A stretch of DNA of 64,000 nt from Phormidium tenue FACHB-886 (GTDB taxonomy: Bacteria > Cyanobacteriota > Cyanobacteriia > Elainellales > Elainellaceae). Within the stretch, counting starts at the first letter, position 1. Each line of letters begins with the position of its first letter. Both the position numbers and the translations under genes were made by a program. Below the pieces are notes generated by a model. The model did not search any database. It was not told the origin of the DNA and saw nothing but the letters and a program-made list of their open reading frames with translations. The stretch lies in assembly GCF_014764505.1 (NCBI RefSeq), contig NZ_JACXWX010000003.1:186001-250000 (forward strand), read 5' to 3'. Positions 38,121-59,159 of the stretch are shown here, one piece after another.

Positions 38121-39587
38121 CTACTCCTCCACCCAAACCGATACCGAGCCGCCTTTGCAGTAAAACTCACCCCAGCCGTGCTCGTTGGTGTATACAGGAT
38201 AGGACGAATGCTCTGTCAGGTCATAGAACACTGTATCTGGTTTGCCCACCTCCATCCACTTGCTGCCGCCCCAGCCATCGCTCAAAATTACCGCCATCGC
38301 CTTGGGGTGCTGCTCGTCTCCTAAACAAGTCCAGCCGATCACATTAAAGTGATCGAAATAGTCATATTGCTTGCCGTGGGTAAAATGCTTGCGGGCATAG
38401 AGAAACTTATCGAGTATCCAACGGTGGCGCGGCATCCAAACTTCCCAATCTTTATCCCAGTAGTGTGTCCCGTAATAATCTGCTGCAAATACACAGGGAT
38501 ATCCCTCCTGGCGCAGCAGAATCAATGCATAGGCGATCGGTTTAAACCACGGCTCCACTACAGACTCCAACACCTGTAGCGGCTGAGAATCGTGATTATC
38601 CACAAATGTAACTGCAAGACTGGGCTGCTGTTGCATCAGTGTGCCGTCGAAAATCCGCCGCATGTCATAGTAGCCACCCGATCGACTTGCCCGATGAAAG
38701 TTGTAGTGGAGCGGCACATCAAACAGCGACCAGTTGCCACCCGTCGATTGAATAAACTGGTGCAGCAGAGTGATATCTTCTGCCCAGTAGTTTGCAGCCG
38801 TAAACAGCGATTGGCCCGCATGAGCGCAGACAGCCACCAGCCACTCCTTGCAGAAATCAGCATGGAGATGTTTGGCAGCATCCAACCGAACCCCATCGAT
38901 CCCAGTTGTTTCAAGAAACCAACTGCCCCAGCGCTTCAGCTCTGCGATCACTTCTAGATCAGCCGTATCCACATCACAGGCAGTTCCAAAACTTTCCTCA
39001 GCATGACGAGGATCAAGCTCAATATCAAAACAACCATTCTTAAATCGATACACCGTATTGTCATCTGGGCGCAGCACATTGTGATTCACCGACTCAAAAT
39101 GCCGTCCCTCCCACTTAAACCCCGAATAAGCTCCCCCCCGTCCGTGAAACGTGAAGCGCGTCCAAGCCTTAATCTGCTCCGGCTCTCCAATGCTAAAGTT
39201 GCGATCGCCCGCCGCTACAGGAACCGCCTCCAACTCCTCAACCTCATCCCCTCCGTGCTTATGGTGCAGCACACAATCTCCATACACCTGCATCCCCACC
39301 GCCTGAATTGCCTGGATTGCGTCTAGCAGCTGCGATCGCGTTCCATAGCGAGTCCGCACCGTCCCACACTGGTCAAACTCACCTAAATCAAATAGATCGT
39401 AGACCGCATAGCCCGTATCATCTATCCCATTGCTACCCTTACACGGAGGCGGCAGCCAAATCGCCGTAAAGCCCGCTGCTGCTAGCTCAGGAGCCGTCGA
39501 TCGCAAAAGATCCCAGTGCGTTCCGTCATTTGAAAGGTGGGCATGAAACCCTTGCAAAATCACACCATTGAGAGGAGGTTGGCTCAT
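38121..39587 (-). CDS. GH13 cytoplasmic alpha-amylase-like protein with altered active site
   Basis: This 488-residue GH13 protein resembles bacterial cytoplasmic and Bacillus-type alpha-amylases (subfamily 5). It has the nucleophile in GVRLDAAKH (D236), the transition-state aspartate in FVDNHDSQ (D333), the conserved DVPLHYNFHRAS, and no signal peptide. The position of the general-acid glutamate, normally in AEYW or GEYW, reads AANYW, with Asn266 encoded by AAC. Region I reads DCVLHHK where the calcium-ligand asparagine is usual (V-I/L-N-H). The protein may therefore be inactive, have changed chemistry, or bind glucan only. Start at ATG 39587. Gene identity is sure; catalytic activity is doubtful. 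Confidence 0.88.
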   Translation of the reverse strand: MSQPPLNGVILQGFHAHLSNDGTHWDLLRSTAPELAAAGFTAIWLPPPCKGSNGIDDTGYAVYDLFDLGEFDQCGTVRTRYGTRSQLLDAIQAIQAVGMQVYGDCVLHHKHGGDEVEELEAVPVAAGDRNFSIGEPEQIKAWTRFTFHGRGGAYSGFKWEGRHFESVNHNVLRPDDNTVYRFKNGCFDIELDPRHAEESFGTACDVDTADLEVIAELKRWGSWFLETTGIDGVRLDAAKHLHADFCKEWLVAVCAHAGQSLFTAANYWAEDITLLHQFIQSTGGNWSLFDVPLHYNFHRASRSGGYYDMRRIFDGTLMQQQPSLAVTFVDNHDSQPLQVLESVVEPWFKPIAYALILLRQEGYPCVFAADYYGTHYWDKDWEVWMPRHRWILDKFLYARKHFTHGKQYDYFDHFNVIGWTCLGDEQHPKAMAVILSDGWGGSKWMEVGKPDTVFYDLTEHSSYPVYTNEHGWGEFYCKGGSVSVWVEE

Positions 39588-39747
39588 TTGTTCTTAGGTC
39601 TACCGTTGCGTATCGTGCTCTAATCGTAATCAATAAATTAATACCCAACTTTTCTCATGCAACTTCTTCAGAAGACGAAATCTTTTTTCATCAAGGACTG
39701 GTTCGATCCTGCTTGAAGTGCCGCTTTCAGTTTGTTCAGTTCGTTTT

Positions 39748-39932
39748 TAGCTGGCATGGCTTCACTTTCCGCTAGCCCAGTTCCACAGCGAGACTGCTTG
39801 ACTTCGCTTCTAGCTGGCATGGCTTCGCTTTAAACTGATTCAGTTTCGCTTTTGGCTAGCTCAGCTTTGCTTTCCGCTAGTTCAGCTTCACTGCGAGACT
39901 GCATGGCTTTGCTTTCCGCTAGCTCAGCGTGG
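39748..39932. repeat. Degenerate direct-repeat cluster downstream of nothing coding
   Basis: Words such as TTCCGCTAG-YY-CAG, AGCTGGCATGGCTTC and GCGAGACTGC recur two or three times in different spacing within 185 bases. There are no constant spacers, so it is not a CRISPR array. An open frame over it has very low complexity and is not supported. Confidence 0.7.
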
Positions 39933-40037
39933 CTTTTGAGGCACCGTTGCATTGTGGGGATTGGCAGAGTCGATTTGCTCCCTCAATCCGCCAATTCTGG
40001 CTACTGTGTGCACAGAATTTGCTGTAGATTGCTGGAG

Positions 40038-40090
40038 TTTCTGCATTCGAGCCGTGGGGGAAGTCTTCCCCCACGGCTCGAATGCAGAAA
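40038..40090. repeat. 26-bp near-palindrome (hairpin repeat)
   Basis: Perfect 26-base arms beginning TTTCTGCATTCGAGCCG flank a single T. The inner part CCCCCACGGCTCG recurs at 40917-40929, where it is part of another hairpin. It could be a strong terminator, a cruciform or an imperfect mobile element. Confidence 0.9.
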
Positions 40091-57521: not shown

Positions 57522-59159
57522 ATGCTAGATCTCTGGTATAAAACCGCTGTTATCTACTGTCTAGATGTAGAGATTTTCAAGGACGGTAACGGAGACGGCA
57601 TTGGCGATTTTGAGGGATTGATTCAGCGGCTTGACTACATCGCTGGACTAGGCATTAATTGCATTTGGCTAATGCCGTTCTACCCTACGCCAAATCGTGA
57701 CAACGGCTACGACATCACGGATTACTACAGCGTCGATCCAAGGCTGGGGACGCTAGGAGATTTTGTAGAATTTACGCGGCAGGCAAATCGTCGGGGGATG
57801 CGAGTGATCGTCGATCTGGTGATTAACCACACTTCGACAGACCATCCCTGGTTTCAGGCAGCCTGCCAAGATAAAAATTCCAAGTACCGAGACTTCTACG
57901 TTTGGTCAGAAGAGAAGCCTGAAGATGCAGAGGAAGGCATTGTGTTTCCGGGCCGCCAAGATAGCACCTGGACTTACAATGAAGCGGCTGGTGCCTTCTA
58001 CATGCACCGCTTCTACGATCATCAAGCCGACTTAAATATTGGCAACCCAGTTGTCCGAGAAGAGCTTTATAAAGTGATGGGATTTTGGCTGGAGTTGGGC
58101 GTGTCTGGCTTTCGCATCGATGCAGCTCCCTTCTTAATTGAGCTGAAGGGCATTGAGGAAACAGCAGATATCACTGATCCCTACCTCTACCTGCAGCAGA
58201 TCCGAGAGTTTCTTTCTTGGCGGCAGGGAGATGCCATTATCTTGGCAGAAGCGAATGTGTCGATCGATGAGATTCCCAAATATTTTGGCGACGGCAACAA
58301 GATGCAAATGCTGTTTAACTTTATCGGCAATCAGTACTTGATTCTGGCGTTAGCCCGGGAATCTGCTGCACCTCTGATCGAAGGACTGAAATCACTGCCG
58401 CAAATCCCGGCGATCGGGCAGTGGGCGCAGTTCGTCAAGAATCACGATGAGATGTCGCTGGATAAGCTCTCGAAGGAAGAGCAGGAAGAGATCTTAAACA
58501 ACTTCCAGCAGGATAAAGAGCAAGCTTGGATTTTCGATCGGGGTATTCGTCGTCGTTATCCGCCGCTGGTGGCGAATGATCCGCGGCGGGTGCGGCTTGC
58601 CTATAGCCTGATGTTTACATTACCAGGTACTTCTGTGCTGTTTTATGGCGAAGAGATCGGTATGGGCGATAACTTGGCGCTGGAAGAGCGGCATTCTCTG
58701 CGTACCCCAATGCAGTGGTCGGATGAATCGAATGGCGGTTTTTCTACGGCTCCAGCCGACAAGCTGATTCGTCCAGTCATTAACGAAGGGGAATATGGCT
58801 ATCCGCAGCTCAACGTCATCGCCCAACGGCGTGACTCAGATTCGTTGCTCAACTGGATGGAGCGGGCAATTCGGATGGTGAAGGAATGCCCAGAAATTGG
58901 CTGGGGAACTCTACAAATCATCGAAACTGACAATCCTGCCGTGTTTGCTCACTGCTGCCAATGGCAAGGCGGTACGGTGCTCGCAGTTCACAACTTGTCT
59001 CGGCAGGCGTGCAGCGTCACACTCAAGTGGAGCAGCGATGAACACTTGATCGAGCTGCTAGGTGATCGTCCTTATGAGGCAATTGGCAAAGCGACAGATG
59101 GAATTCAGCTTGAGGGCTACGGCTATCGCTGGCTACGGGTCGGTACAAATAACCTTTAG
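57522..59159 (+). CDS. Trehalose synthase-like GH13 enzyme
   Basis: This 545-residue GH13 enzyme is like trehalose synthase (maltose isomerase, subfamily 16) with nucleophile D200 in GFRIDAA, general acid E243 in LAEANVS and D309 in KNHDE, and the subfamily-typical GDGIGDFEGLIQRLDYIAGLGINCIWLMPFY and VINHTSTDHPW. Unlike the amylase at 38121, all three acids are intact. It is slightly shorter than TreS (about 570 or more residues) and lacks a maltokinase domain. It may interconvert maltose and trehalose or act on other alpha-glucosides, linking to compatible-solute metabolism. Start at ATG 57522 behind AGGAG. It overlaps the convergent IMPase-family gene by four bases. Confidence 0.85.
   Translation: MLDLWYKTAVIYCLDVEIFKDGNGDGIGDFEGLIQRLDYIAGLGINCIWLMPFYPTPNRDNGYDITDYYSVDPRLGTLGDFVEFTRQANRRGMRVIVDLVINHTSTDHPWFQAACQDKNSKYRDFYVWSEEKPEDAEEGIVFPGRQDSTWTYNEAAGAFYMHRFYDHQADLNIGNPVVREELYKVMGFWLELGVSGFRIDAAPFLIELKGIEETADITDPYLYLQQIREFLSWRQGDAIILAEANVSIDEIPKYFGDGNKMQMLFNFIGNQYLILALARESAAPLIEGLKSLPQIPAIGQWAQFVKNHDEMSLDKLSKEEQEEILNNFQQDKEQAWIFDRGIRRRYPPLVANDPRRVRLAYSLMFTLPGTSVLFYGEEIGMGDNLALEERHSLRTPMQWSDESNGGFSTAPADKLIRPVINEGEYGYPQLNVIAQRRDSDSLLNWMERAIRMVKECPEIGWGTLQIIETDNPAVFAHCCQWQGGTVLAVHNLSRQACSVTLKWSSDEHLIELLGDRPYEAIGKATDGIQLEGYGYRWLRVGTNNL

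Follow-up and report, generated by a model that had tools for sequence, protein, structure and literature searches.

An amylase homologue of GH13 subfamily 5 from Phormidium tenue with asparagine in place of the general acid: a probable pseudoenzyme

Inactive members of enzyme families and the protein of Phormidium tenue

The isoamylase paralogue ISA2 of plants and green algae is a non-catalytic GH13 protein, the continued selection of which has been described as not understood (PMC12510319). Putatively inactive GH13 alpha-amylases without catalytic residues, LlAamyB4 and B6, occur in the sandfly (PMC8063059), and inactive forms with a shown fitness effect are found among the GH28 pseudoenzymes of leaf beetles (PMC6549527). 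Supposed pseudoenzymes may also use migrated residues, as pointed out in a review (PMC10211241). In the part of the open literature on GH13 and GH13_5 pseudoenzymes that was covered, natural GH13_5 proteins lacking the acid/base residue were not described, which is not proof of absence.

We analysed a stretch of 64,000 nucleotides from Phormidium tenue FACHB-886, here called the window, in which an open reading frame on the minus strand (38121-39587) encodes a protein of 488 amino acids that contains SLFTAANYWAEDITL. The frame is open throughout, and the 488 codons without a stop or frameshift bear out the earlier note, which had described the frame as intact and the rest of the protein as complete. 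The window protein matches the NCBIfam alpha-amylase model PRK09441 with 587 bits, and its best relatives of solved structure are 4uzu (E 7e-151) and 1hvx. An AlphaFold2 (AF2) model (pTM 0.83) superimposes on GH13_5 structures with TM scores of 0.90-0.93, so that the fold is kept in the model. By its full-length sequence and its fold the protein thus belongs by descent to GH13 subfamily 5, the subfamily number being assigned from the identity of its relatives and without a CAZy search. No signal peptide was seen by eye, and the parent of the gene was probably a cytoplasmic GH13_5 alpha-amylase. Automatic annotation would label the protein an alpha-amylase.

The window protein shares with the bacterial alpha-amylases of this subfamily (Geobacillus stearothermophilus, 1hvx/4uzu; B. 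licheniformis; PRK09441) its length, fold, domain order, nucleophile, transition-state Asp and the GH13-wide His, Arg and Tyr, but it is without the acid/base Glu and differs in some of the Ca/Na ligands and in several invariant residues of the N-terminal half. Like ISA2, it is a GH13 protein in which a catalytic residue has been lost while an active paralogue exists alongside; ISA2, in contrast, belongs to another GH13 subfamily, varies at at least four of the five catalytic positions, nucleophile included, and has a known partner (PMC12510319). The sandfly GH13 and leaf beetle GH28 cases resemble it as intact genes of expanded families with catalytic residues absent, but they are from animal digestive families and belong to an unrelated subfamily or family.

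We propose, with a probability of about 0.58, that the gene encodes a pseudoenzyme: a non-catalytic amylase retained next to a canonical one because its C-terminal half serves in binding or as a scaffold. The second amylase copy would have been free to diverge because a canonical paralogue with the GEYW motif resides in the same genome (C35:99037-100503, 55% identical to the window protein), and the exchange of the acid/base Glu for Asn would have ended, or nearly ended, hydrolysis. A non-hydrolytic job would then be borne mainly by the C-terminal half, which consists of the last barrel strands and domain C. The likeliest such job would be to bind maltodextrin or glycogen, or to form a pair with the canonical amylase of the genome in the way that plant ISA2 pairs with ISA1. 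If expressed, the protein would offer a natural amylase without acid/base for studies of chemistry and binding, and a bacterial counterpart of the inactive isoamylase ISA2.

Residue 266 and the remainder of the active site

Residue 266 of the window protein is Asn (codon AAC, 38790..38792, minus strand), and in a gap-free alignment it falls on the catalytic Glu of the solved GH13_5 amylases (E264 in BStA numbering). In the AF2 model it lies just past strand 262-265, as does the catalytic Glu at the end of strand 5, and it stands 30 residues from Asp236, which is the spacing that our search motif required and found in the Glu-bearing genes of the family. The replacement of the general acid by Asn266, which had been claimed from the letters alone, is therefore confirmed, since the alignment with cyanobacterial relatives places the residue exactly in the Glu column. 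The Glu of region III, by which a GH13 alpha-amylase is recognised by activity and which is present in all canonical relatives, is thus absent, and with it a conserved catalytic motif, which is one of the marks of a pseudoenzyme. A single sequencing error is ruled out as the source of Asn266 because two base changes are needed to reach Asn from GAA or GAG, and many other changes are seen in the region. Glu270, which the earlier note had named as a possible relocated acid, is rejected in that role because it is also present in relatives that keep Glu266 (e.g., L054, with GEYWSED).

In the chemistry of GH13 enzymes, the Glu protonates the leaving group and activates water. Because this chemistry needs the Glu, we infer that hydrolysis of alpha-1,4 bonds by the window protein should fall by orders of magnitude, to little or none.

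Other parts of the active site are retained. The nucleophile Asp236 (38880..38882) and the transition-state Asp333 (38589..38591), both on the minus strand and with coordinates computed from the start of the open reading frame, align with D234 and D331 of BStA, in agreement with the earlier claim that both remain, and the region II and region IV Asp that mark a GH13 alpha-amylase by activity are thus in place. In all, six of the seven GH13-wide residues are retained (Y60, H109, R234, D236, H332 and D333), which is why a substrate could possibly still bind at the cleft. A non-hydrolytic glucan-binding protein and altered chemistry, the two readings offered in the earlier note, would both be conjectural.

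At the Ca-binding columns (N104, D161, D194, D200, D202, D204 and H235 of BLA), H108, E165, S199 and A209 differ in the window protein while D205, D207 and H240 are kept; the D194 and D204 columns are variable among cyanobacterial relatives as well. The His in place of the Ca-ligand Asn in region I is real (His108, 39264..39266, minus strand), but it is by itself not a mark of inactivity, since a canonical homologue with GEYW (L045) also has His at this position. Near the N-terminus, Ala16-His17 (39537..39542, minus strand) give the motif FHAH instead of the FHWY (Trp-Tyr) typical of the family; these coordinates and those of His108 were likewise computed from the start of the frame.

Loss of the acid/base residue is extremely rare in natural sequences of this much-studied subfamily. 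The column is Glu in all cyanobacterial relatives that were fetched except one, and a motif that requires the Glu was matched 56 times among 386 genomes of the phylum and 44 times among 36 of the family, two sets that overlap; the family genes that this motif missed were mostly checked singly, and all of those had Glu. A complementary motif, with a codon not starting with G at position 266 and hence blind to exchanges of Glu for Asp, Gly, Ala or Val as well as to altered flanks, gave four matches in about 85,000 species genomes, of which two (L080 and L081) had no match to the window protein and were discarded. The other two are homologues with Lys at the position, and one of these, a gene in Pantoea, is broken by in-frame stops. 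The second, from Arthrospira sp. PCC 9108 (L082 6044-7513, plus strand), is the exception among the cyanobacterial relatives and shares with the window protein the subfamily and the lost column, but it differs by a single base change and is otherwise canonical, which probably makes it an isolated, possibly strain-level, mutation.

Unequal change in the two halves of the protein

We compared the window protein with 59 cyanobacterial relatives at columns that are at least 95% conserved among them. Up to residue 268, 14 of 75 such columns are changed, as compared to none of 80 beyond it (Fisher p = 2e-5, a post hoc test of halves with the cut at residue 268 set after the data were seen). The relatives have on average 0.4 and 0.7 changed columns in the two halves, and at most six in all. 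The changes are M11L, W16A, Y17H, V58T, K80R, N108H, D165E, V191L, G196A, L201G, F233V, F246C, G265A and E266N. The trees (FastTree and a quick tree) agree with a division into an accelerated N-terminal part (residues 1-268; 38784..39587, minus strand) and a constrained C-terminal part (residues 269-488; 38121..38783, minus strand), in that the terminal branch of the window protein is 0.80 in the N-terminal half, the longest in the tree, and an ordinary 0.28 in the C-terminal half. In a two-rate codon model of nine genes, an omega of 1 on the window branch was rejected for the whole gene (2dlnL 54), the N-terminal half (42) and the C-terminal half (10.6), with synonymous change being so saturated that the value of omega, the date of the loss and any late relaxed phase are unreadable.

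These data bear on the main rival explanation, in which the gene is in decay. A superfluous amylase copy would have lost the catalytic Glu and would now drift, without a present function and too recently for stops or frameshifts to have arisen. One point for it is the canonical copy in the same genome. The N-terminal half is accelerated, and the omega of the C-terminal half is somewhat above that of the relatives (0.15 vs 0.06, 2dlnL 4.4, at saturated synonymous sites). In addition, broken copies of the family exist elsewhere, including a frameshifted copy (L099), a TGA-bearing copy in genome G111 and a pseudogene (L083). Drift should, however, strike both halves, and uniform decay does not yield the split of 14/75 against 0/80; a uniform late neutral phase is not seen, because both halves would have been touched. 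Moreover, the step from Glu to Asn takes two base changes, the frame has remained free of stops and frameshifts over its whole length, and the codon model rejects a fully neutral branch. We therefore regard decay as unlikely, with some residual probability that constraint was relaxed only recently in a gene that had long been functional. The earlier note had argued that the gene is not decayed since its frame is intact; this reasoning is weak, but the direction of the argument is upheld by the unchanged columns of the C-terminal half and the rejected neutral rate.

The split would be uninformative about selection if gene conversion from an active amylase had overwritten the C-terminal half, in which case decay of the gene would again be possible. 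The window protein is placed near L056, L058 and L059 in the tree of the C-terminal half (support 0.76), and near L054, L052, L055 and L023 in the trees of the full protein and the N-terminal half, as conversion would predict; all of these supports are, however, low. The C-terminal half is not grouped with the canonical copy of the genome (L022), and a recent donor is precluded by the terminal branch of 0.28, which makes conversion very improbable.

Retaining glycosidases whose acid/base residue has been mutated remain reactive towards activated substrates, and the myrosinase of plants naturally works with Gln at that position. By analogy, the window protein may be a retaining enzyme of altered chemistry, in which the nucleophile Asp236 attacks donors that carry a good leaving group or serves in transglycosylation, consistent with the kept nucleophile, Asp333, Arg234 and both His residues. 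We consider this quite improbable: other usually invariant residues of the N-terminal half are changed (W16A, Y17H, L201G and F233V), new conserved residues are not recognisable without orthologues, and the most constrained part of the protein lies outside the half that holds the pocket.

The same location of the constraint, in the C-terminal half and not in the pocket half, fits a task of the catalytic cleft less well than one of the constrained half as a scaffold or binding surface. We infer, with less confidence, that the retained non-hydrolytic job of the proposed pseudoenzyme sits mainly in the C-terminal half, because the best conserved part lies outside the half with the pocket, and because a second degenerate protein, described below, has lost the pocket and largely kept this half. 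Counting against a pseudoenzyme is the lack of a close orthologue that would show its retention in a further species, the nearest relative being about 64% identical. The saturated synonymous sites, the somewhat raised omega of the C-terminal half and, as given below, the unshared gene neighbourhood and the promoter scan weigh in the same direction.

A second degenerate protein, relatives and genomic context

Another genome of the same family encodes a reduced GH13_5-type protein of 378 amino acids (L101 2464-3600, minus strand), which resembles the window protein in its beginning (NGVLLQAFHAH). Domain B is mostly gone, as are catalytic regions I and II, and the region IV Asp is lost, while SEYW is present and the C-terminal half is largely kept; the protein also carries the repeat-like inserts SPNSAPNSAPNS and CTPNCTPNCTPN. 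It violates 57 of the 75 conserved columns of the N-terminal half and 15 of the 80 of the C-terminal half, the latter mostly around catalytic region IV. Four states, L11, A16, H17 and Q277, are common to the two proteins and found in no other member, which is the top count among 1310 divergent pairs in a post hoc test with both branches long. In the tree of the C-terminal half the reduced protein adjoins L059, and a clade of the two proteins is neither supported nor rejected by an AU test (p = 0.25). The two may represent one old, FHAH-marked lineage of GH13_5 proteins without catalysis, whose C-terminal half has come to bind glucans or to act as a regulator in the glycogen metabolism of cyanobacteria, an idea that we hold to be speculative and rather doubtful. 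No other amylases with FHAH were found in the sampled cyanobacterial genomes. Matches to the FHAH pattern at L132, L134, L135, L137 and L138 were unrelated, with an amylase-like reading frame absent; the protein at L132 and L135 is presumably endonuclease-V-like, as recognised by eye.

The nearest relatives of the window protein are 62-64% identical and canonical. A search for orthologues with single-protein patterns against genome contigs, in a collection where the genus is represented by one genome, gave no match. The neighbourhood showed no conservation, in that none of the other genes of the window flanks the amylase of eight relatives or the paralogue in the same genome, and the only matches, weak ones of kinase and ABC type, are probably unrelated. 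Two of the broken family copies are canonical-looking: L099 (G215:C53), with a frame change, and G111:C101:8487-9953, with an in-frame TGA.

A promoter scan gave matches no more numerous than in shuffled sequences. Upstream of the gene, degenerate repeats with a period of 21 nucleotides were observed at 39740-39936 of the window, where one frame of the minus strand reads like a short heptad-type SEAELAESKAELAKSE peptide, and an inverted repeat at 40038-40090 has perfect 26-nt arms around a centre of 1 nt. The window also encodes a second GH13 protein of 545 amino acids (57522-59159, plus strand), with Pfam Malt_amylase_C and SupH-like C-terminal domains.
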